This document shows, one piece after another, positions 4,754-14,758 of a stretch of DNA of 64,000 nucleotides (its first letter is position 1; each line of letters starts with the position of its first letter). The notes beneath the pieces were generated by a model. The model was given only the letters and a program-made list of their open reading frames with translations, searched no databases and had not been told where the DNA came from. A program made the position numbers and the translations under genes. Source of the DNA: Candidatus Bathyarchaeota archaeon (GTDB lineage Archaea > Thermoproteota > Bathyarchaeia > TCS64); the NCBI GenBank assembly GCA_018396865.1, contig JAGTRB010000011.1:1-64000 (forward strand). Reading direction: 5' to 3'.

Positions 4754-5833
4754 TTGGTTTTGGCCTACACACGTCCGGTCTATCCCTTCTCCGCCCTGGT
4801 GGGGCAGCCGGAGCTGAAGCTAGCCCTCCTCCTCAACGCCGTAAACCCAATGATAGGGGGGCTCCTCATAAGGGGGCAGAAGGGAACGGGGAAGAGCACC
4901 GCTGTGAGGGCCCTGGTGGACATACTTCCGGAGATATCAGTTGTGAGGGGTTGTCCATTCAACTGCAACCCCTTCGACCCCACCAATATGTGCCCCACAT
5001 GTCTTGATAAATATCTCAGAGGCAGCCCACTCGACGCTGAGACCAGGAGGATGAAGGTTGTAACCCTACCTATAGGGGCAACAGAGGACAGGGTTGTCGG
5101 AAGCCTAGATATAGAGAAGGCCATAAGCGAGGGTATTAGGGCCCTTCAGCCTGGATTGCTGGCTGAGGCTAACCAGAACATCCTCTACATAGATGAGGTT
5201 AACCTCCTACCGGACCACATAACCGACAGCATCCTGGACGCAGCTGCATCGGGCTGGAACGTGGTTGAGAGGGAGGGCATCAGCGTACAGCACCCCTCAA
5301 GGTTCATCCTGATAGGGACGATGAACCCAGAAGAAGGAGAGCTGAGACCACAGCTGGCCGACAGATTCGCCCTCCACATCTCCGTCGAGGGGATCTACGA
5401 CGAGGAGCAGAGGGTGGAGATAATAAGGAGAAACCTTGAGTTCGGAGAGGACCCCATAAGCTTCCATAAAAGGTGGTTCAGTGAGCAGGAGGAGCTGAGG
5501 AAGAGGATCATAAGGGCGAAGGAACTCCTAGGCGTTATAGAGGTCCCAGACTTCCTAGTTAGAGGGGTCGCATCGGCTTGCATCAGGCTCCACATAGACG
5601 GCCACAGGCCAGACATCTCGACCATCAGGGCAGCCAAGACCCTCGCATCCCTAGAGGGCAGAAAGACGGTCACAGAGGAGGATATACTCAGGGTCGCCGT
5701 TATGGCTGTTGGGCAGAGGACGAGGGGTGGAGGCTTCGAGGAGCCCGCTAAACCGGAGCAGGTGAGGGAGGCATTCGCGGAGGCTATAAGGATGGCGAAG
5801 GCCAAGTCAACCGAGCAGAGGGCGAAGCCCTAG
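4754..5833 (+). CDS. ChlI/BchI-type AAA+ ATPase (magnesium/cobalt chelatase family)
   Basis: AAA+ motor subunit of the class that powers metal insertion into tetrapyrroles. 359 residues: Walker [10 protein letters not shown] (41-49), Walker [11 protein letters not shown] (143-152), sensor-1 Asn in [12 protein letters not shown], and the arginine finger after it (ADRF). A four-Cys insert CPFNC...MCPTC (Cys67, 71, 80, 83) is typical of this family. It overlaps the following ChlI-ChlD fusion by one base (TAGTG), so the two should form a two-subunit motor. The large chelatase subunit (CobN/ChlH/BchH) is not in the window. In a non-photosynthetic archaeon the likely metal target is cobalt for B12, but this is inference. 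TTG start assumed; a second TTG lies six bases on. Confidence 0.88.
5129..5353 (+). repeat. Near-identical 225-bp tract, copy 1 (shared with 6211-6435)
   Basis: This segment, inside the ChlI gene, matches 6211-6435 in the ChlI-ChlD gene at 224 of 225 bases by eye; the only difference I see is T at 5146 versus C at 6228. It covers Walker B to sensor 1. Flanking sequence of the two genes diverges sharply, including at synonymous sites. The best explanation is recent gene conversion. Confidence 0.92.
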
Positions 5834-8199
5834 TGTCCCAGACCGAGAAGCATGAGGTAGTGTATCCCTTCACCGCCATAGTCGACCAAGAGCCCGTCAA
5901 GAGGGCCCTCATCCTGAACGCCATAGACCCATCCATAGGTGGGGTGCTCATATCAGGCCCGAAGGGGACGGGCAAGTCGCTGATCGTCAGGGCCTTCTCC
6001 CAGGTGCTGCCGGAGATAGAGGTGGTCGCCGATTGCCCATTCCGCTGCAGCCCCTCCGACCCAACAAACATGTGCCCATCCTGCCTCTCCAAGCTGAGTG
6101 CTGGAGAGGAGCTGGCAGCGAAGAGGGAGCCGATGAGGATTGTCCAAGTGCCCCTCAGCATAACCGACGACATGCTCGTAGGGAGCCTAGACATGGATAA
6201 GGCGTTAGAGGAGGGTATTAGGGCCCTCCAGCCTGGATTGCTGGCTGAGGCTAACCAGAACATCCTCTACATAGATGAGGTTAACCTCCTACCGGACCAC
6301 ATAACCGACAGCATCCTGGACGCAGCTGCATCGGGCTGGAACGTGGTTGAGAGGGAGGGCATCAGCGTACAGCACCCCTCAAGGTTCATCCTGATAGGGA
6401 CGATGAACCCAGAAGAAGGAGAGCTGAGACCACAGATCCTAGACAGATTTGGCCTCTATGCGGAGACCAGAAATGTGGAAGACCCCGAACAAAGAGCCCA
6501 GATCCTCAACCGGAACGAGGAGTTCGCGAGGGATCCCTTTACCTTCATCTCGAGGTATAAGAAAGAACTTGAGGAGCTCCGCTCCAGGGTTGAGAGAGCT
6601 AGGTTTCTTCTCCCTAAGGTTGAGATCCCGAAGGAGGTCTATTGGAAGGTTGCTGATACCTGCTCGAGGTTGAAGGTCGACGGCTTTAGGCCCGATATAG
6701 TGGCATTGAAGGCCGCAAGGGCCCTCGCGGCCTTCAATGAGAGGGGGGCTGTTCTGGAGGAGGATATGGTTCAAGCCTTAGAGCTGACTTTAGGGCATAG
6801 AACCAGGAGGTCAGGGTTGATACCCCCACCATCAAAGGGGGAGATAAGGAGGGCCTTAGGAAGAAGCCTCAAGCCCAGAGCTGTAAGGGGCTTCACTGAG
6901 AAGCTCGGTGGGATCCTCCTGCTCCCAGGGGAGATGGTTGAGGGGATGAGGAGGAGGGCCCTCTTGGGTGTCATCACGAGCATCACGGTCTTCATACTCG
7001 CAGTAGCCTCCTCCACCCTCCTTATAGAGACTGCGAGGAGCCTCCTCATCCCAACCCCCCCATCGCCGCCGGTTCTGTTAATTGAGATCGCTGGAGGCCT
7101 GTTACTCGCGCTCTTGATATCCCTAATCGCTGGGAGGAGCCGGAGTAGAAGAGAGAGGGCTGTTGGAGTTGTTGATCTATCAAAGATAACGTTAGAGGCC
7201 AGGGGGAGACTCCTACCCACTGGTAGGGAGGCGGGGCTGGGATCGGGCTCTGGCTCGGCAAAGGTAACTTATGGGATAGGCCCATCATCCAATCCCGAGT
7301 ACGGAGCCAAGATCCTGAGCTCCATGGAGGCTCCCAGGAAGGTGCCATCAGGGGTTAAACCATGGAGGAGCAAGACCCCTGGGGGAGCCGCATCATCTGG
7401 GGGAAGGAGGTCTAGGGCTGTTTCATCCCTCCTACGGGGAAGATATGCCTGGTATGCCATACCGAAGGGGAGGCCTAGGGATATCGCCCTGATCCCGACG
7501 ATTATCTCCGCGGCTCAGCATCAGCAGCTCGGCCAGGCGAGGGCTAAAGGGATCTCCATAAGGCCAGAGGATCTGAGGGTCAAGGTGAGGGAGTATCATG
7601 CCCCCTACTCCATAGTCCTCCTCGTAGACATGAGCCTCTCGATGATAGATTCTATGGAGGGGCTTGTCCAGGCCATCTACAGCTTCCACAGGGAGGTCTA
7701 CAGGAGGAGGGACAGGGTGGGACTCGTGGTCTTCAAGGGTTCAAGGGCCTATACGCTTCAGCATCCGACCTCAAACCTAGAGCTTGTGGTGAAGAAGCTG
7801 AGGGAGGTCGGGGCGAGCGACTTCACCCCCATGGCCGCAGGCCTCCTAGAGGCATGGAAGGTGTTGAAGAGGGAGAAGCTGAGGAACAGGGATGCCATTC
7901 CCACCCTCATAGTCGTCTCCGACGGCATCGTCAATGTCCCCCTCGATCCACCTATCTCCCCTCTAACAAGGAGGAGGTACACGAGCGAGGCCCAGGCCGA
8001 CTGCTTCGACGTGGCCAAGTTACTGGTGAAGGAGGGGTTCAAGGTCCACATCGTCAACACGAAGCACACAGAGGGGGAGCAGCCCCCATCACTGGATGAG
8101 AGGTGGAGGCTCAGGCTAACCCCAACCCAGTTCCTTATGGAGCTAGCCAGAGCCGCAAAGGGGGAGTATCATAACATGACCCTAACCCCGAGGCCTTGA
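5833..8199 (+). CDS. ChlI-ChlD fusion: AAA+ ATPase, transmembrane linker and VWA domain
   Basis: 788-residue protein combining three parts. Residues 1-345 are an AAA+ ChlI-like module with Walker A GPKGTGKSL (42-50), the Cys insert CPFRC...MCPSC, and Walker [11 protein letters not shown]. Residues roughly 375-435 hold two hydrophobic segments separated by a Pro-rich turn (PTPPSPPV), predicted to anchor it in the membrane. A low-complexity Ser/Gly/Arg linker follows. The C-terminus is a von Willebrand A domain with the MIDAS motif DMSLSM (about residue 599) and a later VVSDG. In Mg-chelatase the D subunit has a degenerate ATPase; here the Walker motifs look intact. Membrane anchoring is unusual for the family. 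GTG start overlaps the upstream stop by one base. Confidence 0.87.
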   Translation: MSQTEKHEVVYPFTAIVDQEPVKRALILNAIDPSIGGVLISGPKGTGKSLIVRAFSQVLPEIEVVADCPFRCSPSDPTNMCPSCLSKLSAGEELAAKREPMRIVQVPLSITDDMLVGSLDMDKALEEGIRALQPGLLAEANQNILYIDEVNLLPDHITDSILDAAASGWNVVEREGISVQHPSRFILIGTMNPEEGELRPQILDRFGLYAETRNVEDPEQRAQILNRNEEFARDPFTFISRYKKELEELRSRVERARFLLPKVEIPKEVYWKVADTCSRLKVDGFRPDIVALKAARALAAFNERGAVLEEDMVQALELTLGHRTRRSGLIPPPSKGEIRRALGRSLKPRAVRGFTEKLGGILLLPGEMVEGMRRRALLGVITSITVFILAVASSTLLIETARSLLIPTPPSPPVLLIEIAGGLLLALLISLIAGRSRSRRERAVGVVDLSKITLEARGRLLPTGREAGLGSGSGSAKVTYGIGPSSNPEYGAKILSSMEAPRKVPSGVKPWRSKTPGGAASSGGRRSRAVSSLLRGRYAWYAIPKGRPRDIALIPTIISAAQHQQLGQARAKGISIRPEDLRVKVREYHAPYSIVLLVDMSLSMIDSMEGLVQAIYSFHREVYRRRDRVGLVVFKGSRAYTLQHPTSNLELVVKKLREVGASDFTPMAAGLLEAWKVLKREKLRNRDAIPTLIVVSDGIVNVPLDPPISPLTRRRYTSEAQADCFDVAKLLVKEGFKVHIVNTKHTEGEQPPSLDERWRLRLTPTQFLMELARAAKGEYHNMTLTPRP
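6211..6435 (+). repeat. Near-identical 225-bp tract, copy 2 (shared with 5129-5353)
   Basis: Second copy of the tract described at 5129, offset by 1082 bases and in the same orientation and reading frame of the fused ChlI-ChlD gene. Its ends fall at GAGGGTATTAGGG and GCTGAGACCACAG. Confidence 0.92.
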
Positions 8200-8314: not shown

Positions 8315-8327
8315 CAAGGTTTAAATT
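8315..8327 (+). promoter_or_regulatory. BRE/TATA promoter of the TPP riboswitch transcript
   Basis: CAAGGTTTAAATT fits the BRE/TATA pattern used across this window. A start point about 26 bases downstream of the TATA centre would fall near 8349, just before the first helix of the riboswitch at 8352, so the aptamer would form the very 5' end of the mRNA. Confidence 0.6.
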
Positions 8328-8351
8328 GAGATCAGTGTGTATTAATTGAAG

Positions 8352-8446
8352 GCGCCGGGGGAGCTGGGGAAACCTGGCTGAGAGGACGGCTGGTGTGCCG
8401 TCGACCCCTAGAACCTGATCCGGGTAATGCCGGCGGAGGAAGGCGC
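8352..8446 (+). promoter_or_regulatory. TPP riboswitch (THI element)
   Basis: The sequence carries the conserved thiamine pyrophosphate aptamer. GCGCC (8352-8356) pairs with GGCGC (8442-8446) as helix P1; GGGG near 8357 pairs with CCCC near 8405 as P2. The invariant GGCTGAGAGG box is at 8376-8385, and a hairpin GACGGC/GCCGTC (8385-8402) forms the optional P3a stem. The second half holds ACCTGATCCGGGTAATGCCGG followed by CGGAGGAAGG. It sits before a thiD-thiN gene, the expected target. TPP riboswitches are rare in archaea. The downstream CTCCTC (8471-8476) could pair with the GAGGAG ribosome-binding site (8519-8524), suggesting control of translation. Confidence 0.95.
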
Positions 8447-8530
8447 ACCACCCATAAGGCTCCTGAAGGCCTCCTCAACCCCTGTCTCCTCAGTTCTCCC
8501 GGAAGCTCATAGGGAATAGAGGAGAGAAGG

Positions 8531-9910
8531 ATGAGTTTGGAAGGGATAAGGGGTCTAGAAAGGGTGCCTGTAGCGATTACCATAGCCGGGAGCGACTCAG
8601 GAGGTGGAGCAGGTATCCAAGCCGACCTCAAGACCTTCGCAGCCTTAGGGGTCCATGGAACCGTTGCTATAACCTCGGTCACAGCCCAGAACACATACTC
8701 GGTGAAGGGCGTCCAGGACCTCGACCCGGAGATGGTGAGGCTGCAGATAAGGGCCGTGGCTGAGGATATAGGTATAGACGCGGGTAAGACGGGGATGCTC
8801 CACACGGAGGAGATAATAAAAGCGGTCTCAGATGAGGCCTCTGGACAGGGCTTCCCCCTCGTCGTCGATCCGGTGATGGTGGCGAAGTCTGGGGCTCCCC
8901 TACTGAGGCCTGAGGCAGTCGAGGCGTTGAAGAGGTATCTCCTCCCTAGGGCCGCAGTGGTCACACCAAACAGGTTCGAGGCTGAGAGGTTGGCCGAGAT
9001 GGAGATCAGGAATATTGAGGAGGCAAAGAAGGCCGCCTTAAAGATCTCAGGCCTCGGACCCGAGTCCGTCGTGGTGAAAGGAGGCCACCTCGAGGAGGGG
9101 GAGGCCGTCGACATCATATTCTATGAGGGGAAGTTCACACTCCTAAAAGCCCCGAGGCATGATGTTAAGACGACCCACGGTACAGGCTGCTGCTTCTCTG
9201 CAGCGATAGCCGCAGGTCTAGCGAAGGGACTGAAGATACCCAATGCCGTAGAGGAGGCAAAGAGACTGGTCACCCTAGCCATAAAGTACGGCCTCGATAT
9301 AGGAAAAGGTCATGGGCCTGTCAACCCCATGGCCCACCTCTACCGGGAAGCCTCGAGGCACAGGGTTTTATCATTCGTGGACGAGGCTAGAGCCCTCCTT
9401 GAAGCCTCCCCAAACGTCTCTAGGTTGGTGCCCGAGGTTGGGATGAATGTCGCCATGGCGATCCCATACCCCGAGGGTCCCGAGGATGTGGCAGCCTTGC
9501 CTGGGAGGGTAGTCAGGGTTCTAAACGGTGTTAGGGCAGTCATGCCCCCGAGGTTCGGAGCATCCTCCCATCTTGCGAGATACATCCTGGAGATCTCCAG
9601 ATACGACCCCTCAAAGCTGGCGGCCCTAAACATGAGATTCTCAGAGGAGGCGTTAAGGAGATTGGAGGAGAGAGATCTAAAGGCATCCTGCTATGAGAGG
9701 GAGAAGGAGCCCGAGGACATCAAGAGGAGGGAGGGGATGACCATACCCTGGGGGGTGAGGGAGGCGGTTAAGAGGCTGGGAAAGGTACCGGACATCATCT
9801 ATCACAGGGGGGATATTGGAAAGGAGCCAATGATAGTCCTCCTTGGTAGGGATGCCAGGGAACTAGCCAGAATAGTGGTAGAGGTGGCTGGGGAGGTCTC
9901 CTCAGGTTGA
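8531..9910 (+). CDS. thiDN: Bifunctional HMP kinase / HMP-phosphate kinase ThiD fused to thiamine-phosphate synthase ThiN
   Basis: Makes HMP-pyrophosphate and joins it to thiazole phosphate to give thiamine phosphate. Residues 12-270 form the ThiD ribokinase-like domain: AGSDSGGGAGIQADL near the N-terminus, DPVMVAKSG, NRFEAERLA and the C-terminal THGTGCCFSAAIAAGL with catalytic region. Residues about 285-455 are ThiN, the archaeal replacement for ThiE, with MNVAMAIPYP, PPRFGASSHLARYI and the segment before VPDIIYHRGDIGKEPM. ThiD-ThiN fusions are common in archaea. The ATG follows a GAGGAG site that may be masked by the leader. It overlaps thiW by four bases. Confidence 0.95.
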   Translation: MSLEGIRGLERVPVAITIAGSDSGGGAGIQADLKTFAALGVHGTVAITSVTAQNTYSVKGVQDLDPEMVRLQIRAVAEDIGIDAGKTGMLHTEEIIKAVSDEASGQGFPLVVDPVMVAKSGAPLLRPEAVEALKRYLLPRAAVVTPNRFEAERLAEMEIRNIEEAKKAALKISGLGPESVVVKGGHLEEGEAVDIIFYEGKFTLLKAPRHDVKTTHGTGCCFSAAIAAGLAKGLKIPNAVEEAKRLVTLAIKYGLDIGKGHGPVNPMAHLYREASRHRVLSFVDEARALLEASPNVSRLVPEVGMNVAMAIPYPEGPEDVAALPGRVVRVLNGVRAVMPPRFGASSHLARYILEISRYDPSKLAALNMRFSEEALRRLEERDLKASCYEREKEPEDIKRREGMTIPWGVREAVKRLGKVPDIIYHRGDIGKEPMIVLLGRDARELARIVVEVAGEVSSG

Positions 9911-10524
9911 ACTCCAGCTCCTTGAGGCTTAGGAAGATAGGGCTGGTCGCGGTATTCTCAGCCCTGGGGGTCGTCATAGCTCCATTCCTATGGTTCCCTT
10001 TCCTGGGGACAAAGGCCTACCCCGGGCAGCACATGATCAACTCTATACTTGGTGTACTACTTGGCCCCCTGTGGGCCGCTGCGGCAGCCATTATAATAGG
10101 CCTGATAAGGAATGCCCTAGGAATCGGAACTATCTACGCCTTTCCAGGGGGCATACCCGGAGGCTTGGTCGTGGGAGCTGTCTACTGGGCTCTAAGAAGG
10201 CTGAGGAAGGGGAGGCTCCCCCTCATCTCCGCCTTATTCGAGCCCGTGGGGACCGTTTTAATAGGGGCAACCCTCTCCCTCTTCCTAGTCGCACCCTGGA
10301 TAGCAGATCCTAGACTCCTCTCTCAGCTTGAGAAGGGACCCTTAACCGCCCTTATCCTCCTCTGGTCTGGCTGGGCTCTAAGCTCGGTATCGGGGAGCCT
10401 CATAGGACTCATAATCCTGCTGGCACTAGATAGGATAGGGATAAATAGGGAGGTCCTATTCAGGGAAACCCTTCCCTCCGAAAAACTAGAATCAAAGAAA
10501 AGGAATAGGCTTGAAGCTAGATAA
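9907..10524 (+). CDS. thiW: ThiW-type substrate-binding membrane protein (ECF transporter S component)
   Basis: Integral membrane protein of 205 residues with about five or six hydrophobic segments. The signature block is near the N-terminus: FSALGVVIAPFLWFPFLGTK, then YPGQHMINSILGVLLGPLWA and GTIYAFPGGIPGGL, all typical of ThiW, thought to import the thiazole precursor of thiamine. It starts with TTG overlapping the thiDN stop (TTGA), so it is under the same TPP riboswitch. The ECF ATPases and T component are not in the window and would have to be shared from elsewhere. The C-terminus is basic and cytoplasmic. Confidence 0.9.
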   Translation: MNSSSLRLRKIGLVAVFSALGVVIAPFLWFPFLGTKAYPGQHMINSILGVLLGPLWAAAAAIIIGLIRNALGIGTIYAFPGGIPGGLVVGAVYWALRRLRKGRLPLISALFEPVGTVLIGATLSLFLVAPWIADPRLLSQLEKGPLTALILLWSGWALSSVSGSLIGLIILLALDRIGINREVLFRETLPSEKLESKKRNRLEAR

Positions 10525-11106: not shown

Positions 11107-12462
11107 CTAGATGTTCAAATTTAGGATGTTTAATTCTACCCACAGGATGATCGATGCTGTTGTGACCTCAAGTATTGATAGAACTGATCCAACCTTGAGA
11201 TAGTCTCTAAGTCTTATTGTTAATCCTCTCCTTCTAATCGTCTCCATCCACATGAGGATTGCCAATGAGCCTAATGGGAAGAAGTGGGGACCGAGGTTGT
11301 TCCCTATTATGTTTGAGAAGATCAAGCCTGTATAGTCCCTGGGGCTCAAGTTGTTGTAGAGCTTAGCCTTTTTTATCGATATGAGCCCGAGCATTGTCAT
11401 AGGCCAGTTGTTCATGGCACTGGCGCTTACGGTGACTATGAGGCTAGGTACTAGTATTCCAAGGACAGAGGGTAGAGTTAATCCAAATGTGAATAGATAC
11501 GCGAAGAATTCATCTATTTTTGCATGTTTTAGTCCCTGAACTACTAGAAAGACGCTCATCATGAATATTAAGATATCCCAGTTTACTTCCCTTAAAATTT
11601 GCAAAATATCCTTTTTCTCTTCTTTTATAAACCGGCTATTCTTTAAAGAGAAGAAGTATAATGATAATAGGAATAATGCTCCAGAGCATATGACTATCGA
11701 TACTGGGGTTCCGTTGAGAGATGCGATTACATATCCAACATCTATTGAAATCAATAAAAAGAATATGAGTTTTAAATTTCTCTTTGAGATAAGCGAGCCA
11801 TCAATGTTAAGTATTTCGGCAACCTCTAATGAATAATATTTTGGAATCCTGTTTCTGAAGAACAAATAAACAGTGAGAATGCTTATGATTATGGTAACTA
11901 TAGCCACAGGCCCCATCAGGATGAGGTGATCGATGAAGTCATAGTTGAAGAAGTTCGCGCTGACTATATTTACGGGATTGCTCGTTATTAGGGGCATGGC
12001 TGCTGTATCAGCTACAAGTCCCGCTGCGAATAGGTAGGCCAGCCTAGCCTCCCCATCCATCTTCAGCTGACTGACCACCTCGAGGACGATAGGTGTCAAG
12101 ATCAGCACGGCGCTGTCATTCGCGAAGAGGACGCTCACAATCGTGGCTAAAGCCGATATCGCGAAGTAGAGCTTGACTCCATCACCCCCGGAGAACCCTA
12201 CAGCCTTCAATGCAGCCCACTTGAAGAACCCCATAGCATCCAAGGTTAGGGAGAGCATAACTATGCCCAGAAAGGTTAGGGCGGCATCCCAGATCTCCAT
12301 AAAGGCCTGGATGGCATCCTCTAGGCTCACGGTTCCCGATAAAAGGGATGCTAAGGCTCCAATTCCTGCGGCTAGGCCTAAATTTATTCTAAATGGCCTC
12401 CTTACCATTAGGTAGAGGGTTGAAAGAAAAATTATTAGAGAAAACATAAGCTTAGAATACAT
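11107..12462 (-). CDS. ArsB/NhaD-type anion or sodium/proton antiporter family permease
   Basis: Polytopic membrane protein of about 450 residues with roughly eleven hydrophobic segments, of the ion transporter superfamily that includes ArsB and NhaD. The diagnostic blocks are FANDSAVLILTPIVLEVVSQ, and the pseudo-symmetric repeat near SNIIGNNLGPHFFPLGSLA. I start it at ATG 12462, which follows GGGGTGAGGATA, rather than at an upstream GTG-like codon at 12513 that would add a Cys-rich stretch unlike the family and lies near the predicted transcript start. No ArsR or ArsA gene is adjacent, so arsenite export is only one option. Its base composition is AT-richer than neighbouring genes in the middle portion. 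Confidence 0.82.
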   Translation of the reverse strand: MYSKLMFSLIIFLSTLYLMVRRPFRINLGLAAGIGALASLLSGTVSLEDAIQAFMEIWDAALTFLGIVMLSLTLDAMGFFKWAALKAVGFSGGDGVKLYFAISALATIVSVLFANDSAVLILTPIVLEVVSQLKMDGEARLAYLFAAGLVADTAAMPLITSNPVNIVSANFFNYDFIDHLILMGPVAIVTIIISILTVYLFFRNRIPKYYSLEVAEILNIDGSLISKRNLKLIFFLLISIDVGYVIASLNGTPVSIVICSGALFLLSLYFFSLKNSRFIKEEKKDILQILREVNWDILIFMMSVFLVVQGLKHAKIDEFFAYLFTFGLTLPSVLGILVPSLIVTVSASAMNNWPMTMLGLISIKKAKLYNNLSPRDYTGLIFSNIIGNNLGPHFFPLGSLAILMWMETIRRRGLTIRLRDYLKVGSVLSILEVTTASIILWVELNILNLNI

Positions 12463-12524
12463 TATCCTCACCCCCTTCGAGCAAACACATTTTAACTTAA
12501 GTTCAAAGCACAAAATTGAACATG

Positions 12525-12931: not shown

Positions 12932-13132
12932 ATGTGTGAGTTTAAGGTCTTTCTGGATGGAGAGAAGGTCATGGAGGATGTGATATTCGCCAGATCCGAG
13001 GGTGACAGAGTTGTGCTGAGGGACATCATAGGAGAGACCGCCACGTTCGAAGATGTGAAGATCCTTGAGGTCGATGTCACCACTACAAGTCTTATCCTTC
13101 AACGTCTCAAGCTGGGATGCCCAACTCGCTGA
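12932..13132 (+). CDS. CooT-like small nickel-binding protein
   Basis: 66-residue protein starting MCEFKVFLDGEKVMEDVIF, which matches the CooT family: a small beta-sheet protein whose N-terminal Cys2 helps bind Ni(II) and that is linked to nickel delivery to carbon monoxide dehydrogenase. The rest (EGDRVVLRDIIGE, EDVKILEVDV) fits the family's size and pattern. It is convergent with glycyl-tRNA synthetase and the coding regions overlap by 26 bases. No CODH gene is in the window. The presence of such a gene is consistent with a nickel-using anaerobe. Confidence 0.8.
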   Translation: MCEFKVFLDGEKVMEDVIFARSEGDRVVLRDIIGETATFEDVKILEVDVTTTSLILQRLKLGCPTR

Positions 13133-14618
13133 ATCCTATCTCGCCCTTCAGGTACCTGCATATTAAAGGAGGGAGGGCATCAATCCTCTGCCTGACCTGT
13201 CTCCAGCTATCCCTATCCCGAAGGGTCACGGTCCCATCCTCCAGGGTCTGGTAGTCGACGGTGAGGGCTAAGGGGGTTCCAGCCTCATCTGAGCGAGCAT
13301 ATCTCCTCCCGATGGAGCCCCTTTCGTCATACTCAACAATAAGACCGGAGTCAATTAACATTCTTTGAACCTCTCTGGCCTTCTCCGGAAGCCCATCCTT
13401 AGCCACTAGTGGAAGAACTGAGACGTTTATAGGGGCGATCGAGCCTGGGAAGGCCAGTATATTCCTCTCCTCCCTAGCTCTGAAGGATGCCTCTAAGACA
13501 ACATAGACTAGTCGGTCTAGTCCGAAGCTGGGCTCCACGACGTGAGGGATAAACCTCGATCCATCACTCCTAGGCAATGACATGTCGACACCTGAATACC
13601 TCTGGTGAGCGGATAGGTCATAATCTGTCCTGTAGGCGTGCCCAGCCACCTCAACCCAGCCCCAGCTTTCAAGGTGGATCTCATGGTCGAAGGTCTGGAC
13701 TGAGTAGTGAGCCCTTTCCTCTGGAAGGTGCCCCCTGAAACGCTGCCTCTCCTTCGGGATTCCCAGCATCTTGAGGAGCTCATTTGAGAGGCCCATGAAG
13801 TACGCCTGCCACTCTGCCTTGATCAGGCCCTTCGAGCTGGCCTCCCCCAAGGTGATCCTGACTGGTTCTCTCTCCCCCCTCTCCTGCATCTCCTCTGTCA
13901 GTAGCGCTACCTCCTCCTCCTTGACCCTGTCGAACCATGGGCATGAGGGGGTTTGAGGGTCGAAAAACAGCTCTACCTCCATTATGGTGAACTCCCTGAG
14001 CCTGAAAAGCCCTCGACGGGGGGCTATCTCGTTCCTGAGAACCTTACCCACCTGGGCTAGGCCGAGGGGAAGAACCCCTCTCGCCTGCTGGATGCATCGG
14101 CGGAAGTTCAAGAACATCCCCTGGGCCGCCTCGGGCCTCGCATACCCTACCTCCTCTCCCTTGGCCCCTATCCTCGTCTGGAACATTGTTAGGAAGGTCG
14201 CTGGCGCCTTCAGCTCAGCTTTGCAGTCGGGACATCTAACCTTCCCCTCCCCTACAAGCCTCTCGATCTCCCTTCCGTCGATGCTCTGGGCTGGGATTCC
14301 CAGCTGATCCTCGATGAGGTGGTCTGCTCTGCCGACCCTCCCACATCTGGTGCATTCTAAGACATACTCTCTGAAGTGTTGAAGGTGGCCCGAGGCCTCG
14401 AAAACCCTTGAGGGGTTAATTATGGGATCTTCGATCTCGTGGAATCCGTGGCGTCTGACGAAGATCTCCCTCCATAGCTCCTCTATATTTCTCTTGAGCC
14501 TCGTTCCCAGGTTTCCATAGGTGTAGAATCCCCCTATCCCGCCATATATCTCAAAAGAGGGCCAGAAGAAGCCCCTCCTAGAGGCTATCTCAAGGACCTT
14601 CTCGTGCACCTCTCCCAT
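13107..14618 (-). CDS. glyS: Glycyl-tRNA synthetase (dimeric archaeal/eukaryotic type)
   Basis: Class II synthetase that charges tRNA-Gly. About 503 residues from ATG 14618 (MGEVHEKVLEIASRRGFFWP); longer starts add 21 residues not typical of the family. Motif 1 region GFYTYGNLGTRLKRNI, a zinc-binding set (ECTRCGR... CPDCK), motif 2 with FRNE-like LRNEIAPRRGLFRLREF, and motif 3 PSFGLDRLVYVVLE are present. The C-terminal anticodon-binding domain runs from about FPGSIAPINVSVLPL to the end. The cognate tRNA-Gly lies about 300 bases downstream. Archaea carry this alpha2 form, so the assignment is secure. Confidence 0.96.
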   Translation of the reverse strand: MGEVHEKVLEIASRRGFFWPSFEIYGGIGGFYTYGNLGTRLKRNIEELWREIFVRRHGFHEIEDPIINPSRVFEASGHLQHFREYVLECTRCGRVGRADHLIEDQLGIPAQSIDGREIERLVGEGKVRCPDCKAELKAPATFLTMFQTRIGAKGEEVGYARPEAAQGMFLNFRRCIQQARGVLPLGLAQVGKVLRNEIAPRRGLFRLREFTIMEVELFFDPQTPSCPWFDRVKEEEVALLTEEMQERGEREPVRITLGEASSKGLIKAEWQAYFMGLSNELLKMLGIPKERQRFRGHLPEERAHYSVQTFDHEIHLESWGWVEVAGHAYRTDYDLSAHQRYSGVDMSLPRSDGSRFIPHVVEPSFGLDRLVYVVLEASFRAREERNILAFPGSIAPINVSVLPLVAKDGLPEKAREVQRMLIDSGLIVEYDERGSIGRRYARSDEAGTPLALTVDYQTLEDGTVTLRDRDSWRQVRQRIDALPPLICRYLKGEIGFSELGIPA

Positions 14619-14758
14619 ACCCCACAGCCTAGATGCTGATCGAGGTTGGAGATATAAAGATGTCAATTCAATAAGCATCAACCGAAAAGATGTAAGAAAG
14701 TTACGGGTAGGCCCATGAATCCGATTTTAAATTGGTGTCTAACTGTTGTGTTCGAGTG

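Follow-up and report, generated by a model that had tools for sequence, protein, structure and literature searches.

The locus upstream of thiDN-thiW raises the question of whether the RNA element in front of it is a genuine TPP riboswitch and, if so, by which rearrangement of the leader the operon would be controlled. We addressed it by covariance-model searches, RNA folding and comparison with related genomes; all coordinates refer to the window, i.e. the whole 64,000-nt stretch of DNA that was analysed.

The aptamer, its promoter and its target operon

A search with the Rfam TPP model, which the original prediction had proposed as a check, returned a full-length match to RF00059 at 8347-8458 (+), with 75.1 bits (E 5.7e-13, cut-off 54.3) and all 105 model positions covered (1-105). 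It was the single TPP match in the organism's own genome, and Rfam gave just one further match in the 64,000-nt window, a tRNA. The conserved THI parts claimed at the outset, GGCTGAGAGG at 8376-8385, CCTGATCCGGGTAATGCCGG at 8414-8433 and the P1 helix, were all found. The features of this part of the locus are as follows.

8320-8327 (+): TATA box TTTAAATT, read from the sequence and preceded by the purine-rich, BRE-like GGCAAGG
8352-8446 (+): TPP aptamer, from P1 to P1; RF00059 match, and the aptamer fold is obtained by unconstrained folding
8352-8356 with 8442-8446 (+): P1 helix, read from the sequence
8376-8385 (+): pyrimidine-sensing segment GGCUGAGAGG, in agreement with the Rfam consensus
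8414-8433 (+): pyrophosphate-sensing arm CCUGAUCCGGGUAAUGCCGG, in agreement with the Rfam consensus
8435-8439 (+): GGAGG within the aptamer, not used as ribosome-binding site (RBS) here, with no start codon behind it
8531-9910 (+): thiDN, HMP/HMP-P kinase fused to ThiN thiamine-phosphate synthase, 459 aa (PF08543, PF10120, NF006346)
9907-10524 (+): thiW, thiamine-precursor ECF S component with TTG start (PF09512, TIGR02359)

In the Rfam alignment, the conserved segments CUGAGA and CCUGAU...GGUAAU...CCGGCG are present, with one departure from the consensus (AGGAA for AGGGA at 8437-8441) that occurs in other family members too. Folding pairs the AGG of GGAGG with CCU at 8414-8416. The element sits in the leader of a thiamine gene on the same strand (thiDN-thiW, 8531-10524) and, judged by its sequence, is a genuine TPP riboswitch aptamer.

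Profile matches confirmed both ORFs, and with them the expected thiamine synthesis/transport operon, in which the stop of thiDN is overlapped by thiW by four bases. ThiDN is 91% identical in the nearest named relatives, which are Candidatus Bathyarchaeota bins. ThiC and ThiT had no match in the own genome (1.83-Mb draft, 97% complete), and candidate matches to Thi4 were rejected, as they were 33-47-residue stretches of larger proteins. Given these absences in a draft of such completeness, TPP is probably made from salvaged precursors. It should be added that two neighbouring ORFs adjoining the operon (4754-8199) encode a ChlI/MoxR-like AAA protein and an AAA-VWA protein (PF01078, PF17863, PF13519), and that an ArsB/CitMHS-type transporter (11107-12513, -) and a class II tRNA synthetase, glycyl by sequence (13107-14681, -), are found elsewhere in the window.

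Both sister species (genomes G001 and G002) have the same TATA box, whereas the sequence from there to P1 has diverged. In 148 leaders taken from the class, TATA-like hexamers are most frequent 26-33 nt upstream of the first P1 base, and the transcripts therefore very likely begin at about this base. This makes reasonable the start that had originally been placed there from the TATA position.

Alternative helices in the thiDN leader and their predicted exchange

The thiDN start codon stands 85 nt after P1; the leader of 84 nt carries an RBS of its own. Further features of the leader are listed below.

8355-8370 (+): 5' strand of the aptamer, CCGGGGGAGCUGGGGA, complementary to the antisequestor (8487-8502) over 16 contiguous pairs
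8487-8502 (+): antisequestor (anti-aptamer) segment UCCUCAGUUCUCCCGG, overlapping the 5' arm of the RBS hairpin
8485-8525 (+): RBS-sequestering hairpin, 8485-8491/8519-8525 plus 8493-8498/8512-8517, -16.4 kcal/mol alone
8519-8524 (+): Shine-Dalgarno (SD) site GAGGAG, 6 nt before ATG; the own 16S rRNA ends with GGATCACCTCCT

The anti-SD is present at this 3' end of the 16S rRNA of the own genome. SD enrichment before the genes of the window was not detected (15 of 44 genes vs 32% of controls, a comparison of low power). The ATG at 8531 reads ATA in both sister species, where the start would be an ATG one codon upstream (G001) and a TTG two codons downstream (G002). Between P1 and 8531, there is no ATG, GTG or TTG. 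Two candidate arrangements were rejected: an RBS inside the aptamer (direct translation attenuation), since no start codon lies within ~12 nt of the purine tract, and a leader peptide, since the window has no start codon in this interval and a possible 13-codon ORF in G001 is absent from G000.

CTCCTC at 8471-8476, the pyrimidine tracts at 8485-8491 and 8494-8500 and GAGGAG at 8519-8524 are all present as originally described. The two pyrimidine tracts had been regarded as mere competitors for the RBS. The tract 8485-8491 is, however, the predicted favoured partner of the RBS: in the unconstrained fold of 8350-8560, which consists of aptamer and hairpin, 8485-8491/8519-8525 pairs with a probability of 0.98-1.0. 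By itself, this hairpin is within chance, its strength being matched by 199 of 2000 shuffled leaders; the genome-wide fold z-score of the leader is unremarkable (-1.4 for the 221-nt stretch). In G001, the lower stem carries mismatches and the pair probability of the RBS core is only ~0.6, and in G002 the anti-RBS/RBS pairing has one compensatory change, U-A to C-G. Covariation between the anti-RBS tract and the RBS is not demonstrable across archaea with three species sharing the leader.

The second predicted helix joins 8355-8370 to 8487-8502, with 16 uninterrupted pairs, a length reached by none of 2000 shuffles (mean 8.3); its duplex energy was reached by two of 2000, and both helices as strong together by a single one. 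The sister species, the only two further species found with this leader, retain 14 (G001) and 15 (G002) of these pairs. Their leader changes mostly preserve the antisequestor pairing, and conservation within the leader is highest in a block inside 8487-8502. Two-sided covariation was not seen for this helix, because the leader is shared by three species only, all with an identical aptamer strand.

The antisequestor and RBS-hairpin folds exclude each other on sequence, as the leader segment is common to both. RNA ending at 8505-8530 folded into the antisequestor helix instead of the aptamer. According to the nearest-neighbour model, whose energies are without TPP or tertiary contacts, the antisequestor fold was ahead by 8-21 kcal/mol for RNA ends at 8507-8525 (21 at 8507), the two folds were level at ~8545-8550, and the aptamer with the hairpin was ahead by 3-10 kcal/mol in longer RNA. 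The same length-dependent crossover was computed for G001 and G002. At 75 °C, the ligand-free ensemble moved to the antisequestor fold. This helix is likely to be the second half of the switch, which the original prediction had missed.

These computed results, i.e. the identity of the aptamer, the operon, the exclusivity of the helices and the energy crossover, are consistent with a translational two-fold model that we consider fairly probable: a TPP-sensing OFF switch on the initiation of thiDN-thiW. Transcription would begin at about the first P1 base. Without TPP, the segment 8487-8502, once emerged from the polymerase, would invade the aptamer 5' strand 8355-8370 over 16 pairs; the aptamer would be lost and the RBS at 8519-8524 left open (ON). 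If TPP were bound first, the aptamer would be held, 8485-8498 would pair with 8512-8525 and cover the RBS, and translation would be off (OFF). TPP binding, the direction of control and the co-transcriptional timing are what we infer within this model.

The leader allows other readings. In the original prediction, the anti-RBS tract was CTCCTC at 8471-8476, with the other pyrimidine tracts competing. Despite its six-base complementarity to the RBS, this tract has a pair probability of ~0 with it and forcing the pairing costs about 11.5 kcal/mol; the region 8459-8476 folds locally in most structures (GGCUCC with the GGCCUCC region) and the tract itself reads CTCCAC and CCCCTC in the sister species, which makes this arrangement very improbable. 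We also regard as unlikely a switch like that of E. coli thiM, where GGAGG at 8435-8439 would hold the anti-RBS tract in the apo state and TPP would bury GGAGG, freeing the tract for the RBS. GGAGG is indeed complementary to several leader tracts, but the pairing was not populated at either 37 or 60 °C in folds of the aptamer 3' part with the leader, and across the class, no enrichment was seen for leaders pairing with the 3' side of the aptamer (3 of 38).

Control through termination in the leader would be in keeping with the use of U-rich tracts as terminators by archaeal polymerases, and with the T runs of 5-6 found in some leaders of ThiC and ThiW within the class. The longest T run in the thiDN leader and in those of both sisters is, however, 2; there is therefore no U-tract terminator, attenuation of transcription is highly unlikely here, and the translational control originally held plausible is supported over control by a terminator. 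Lastly, the aptamer may have been kept while the platform decayed, with TPP binding without regulating or with mRNA stability as the output. The chance-level strength of the hairpin alone, its imperfection in G001 and the drifting start codon agree with such decay, but the anti-aptamer block is conserved and both helices co-occur in just 1/2000 shuffles, and we hold this reading, too, to be improbable.

TPP riboswitches across Bathyarchaeia

TPP matches were found in 129 of 201 related genomes of the class, which makes the element a regular feature of Bathyarchaeia. The initial statement that TPP riboswitches are rare in archaea is wrong for this class, though in a sample of the phylum 64 of 349 genomes had a match (51 within the class and 13 outside). 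Their rarity among archaea in general is older knowledge, the archaeal TPP riboswitches listed earlier being only from euryarchaea (PMC2258182).

For 139 of the 148 TPP loci gathered, the next gene could be assigned, giving 93 direct-start and 46 longer-leader loci. In the former (93/139), fewer than 20 nt, and usually 0-5 nt, separate P1 from the first in-frame start codon, and the GGAGG of the aptamer, in most relatives the only candidate RBS, stands 6-11 nt before this codon. GGAGG occurs in 85 of the 93 direct-start loci vs 33 of the 46 longer leaders (p = 0.005; the sequences are related and not strictly independent). Direct-start loci mostly precede ThiT (PF09515), and the 46 longer leaders, including that of thiDN, precede ThiDN, ThiC, ThiW, NCS1 permease or ECF S components.

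In 38 leaders of 40-160 nt, dinucleotide shuffles served as the reference for pairing of the leader with the 5' 40 bases of the aptamer. Anti-aptamer pairing reached p<=0.05 in 19 leaders and 0.01 in 8, related loci being counted more than once; in the controls, this was the case for 1/38 with the coding sequence behind the same aptamers, 3/38 with the aptamer 3' side against the leader and 5/93 with the coding sequence of direct-start loci. The 19 leaders span seven family-level groups (f1, f8, f12, f16, f17, f19 and f24). In about half of them, the anti-aptamer segment also covers the RBS region after the aptamer has formed; in others, among them several leaders of ThiC and ECF genes, it leaves that region uncovered, and the output may therefore differ there.

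Tentatively, and with slightly more doubt than assurance, we propose that TPP riboswitches are class-wide and come in two translational designs: the aptamer serving as RBS, mostly at thiT, and the anti-aptamer segment with an RBS hairpin at thiDN, thiC, thiW and NCS1 permease genes, the second having arisen in parallel to the proteobacterial thiC design, with a few aptamers placed before genes without known thiamine role (ParA-like ATPase, MEDS sensor, DUF2284).

As regards such genes, a direct-start riboswitch precedes a ParA/MinD-like ATPase (AAA_31, PF13614) at L114 (G132:C40:1980-2092) and another one at L103 (G199:C1:1326995-1327106), the latter read from the first codons only, the rest being masked; found behind aptamers in two family-level groups, this ATPase is a possible new regulon member. 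MEDS sensory-domain proteins (PF14417) follow TPP riboswitches at L147 (G179:C1:1813930-1814041), where the start codon is directly behind P1, and at L134 (G071:C9:6891-7001), and a DUF2284 predicted metal-binding protein directly follows one at L047 (G008:C71:31342-31444). Five TPP matches (L062-L066) occur in G021, a genome of the same family, and three in G003. Outside the class, at L159, L161, L163 and L165, the aptamer precedes a membrane-anchored or exported protein with a start 48-49 nt behind P1; the leader sequence GCUCCUUCUUCUACCGCC is there complementary to P1 5' GGCGGUAG, again an anti-P1 layout, with a pairing not significant in the shuffle test, which omitted part of P1.

Relation to known switches and significance

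In E. coli thiC, an anti-P1 stem characterises the TPP-free ON state and excludes both P1 and the RBS-sequestering stem; this antisequestor is preferred for as long as the RBS remains held by the polymerase (PMC5234074). The helix predicted here, of the leader with the 5' strand of the aptamer, would likewise exclude P1 and the RBS stem, and it is kept in two sister species. Unlike E. coli thiC, the host is an archaeon, the element precedes thiDN-thiW, the 16-pair helix extends from P1 into the next helix, Rho is not involved and the arrangement is known from prediction. By this analogy, the thiDN-thiW leader would be a known kind of switch with the design of E. coli thiC.

Direct translation attenuation, with the RBS inside the TPP aptamer core, has been described in bacteria (PMC2258182). 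Most thiT-type loci of the class resemble it, with a start right after P1 and the aptamer GGAGG as RBS, whereas the thiDN locus differs by its 84-nt leader and separate RBS. The euryarchaeal TPP riboswitches (PMC2258182) belong to the same aptamer class and are also archaeal but of a different phylum, and the comparison made here is one of the aptamer. By 2021, only one natural riboswitch of archaea had been tested, the fluoride riboswitch of Thermococcus kodakarensis (PMC8241225); it, too, is presumed to act translationally, with another ligand and aptamer. Our literature search, outside which older subscription papers lay, found no paper on TPP riboswitches in Bathyarchaeia.

Archaeal riboswitches with a legible mechanism are scarce, and this locus and its relatives offer a two-fold model with predictions for single helices. 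Moreover, the 93 direct-start and 46 longer-leader loci form a natural series for learning how archaeal ribosomes and polymerase handle an RNA switch best known from bacteria.
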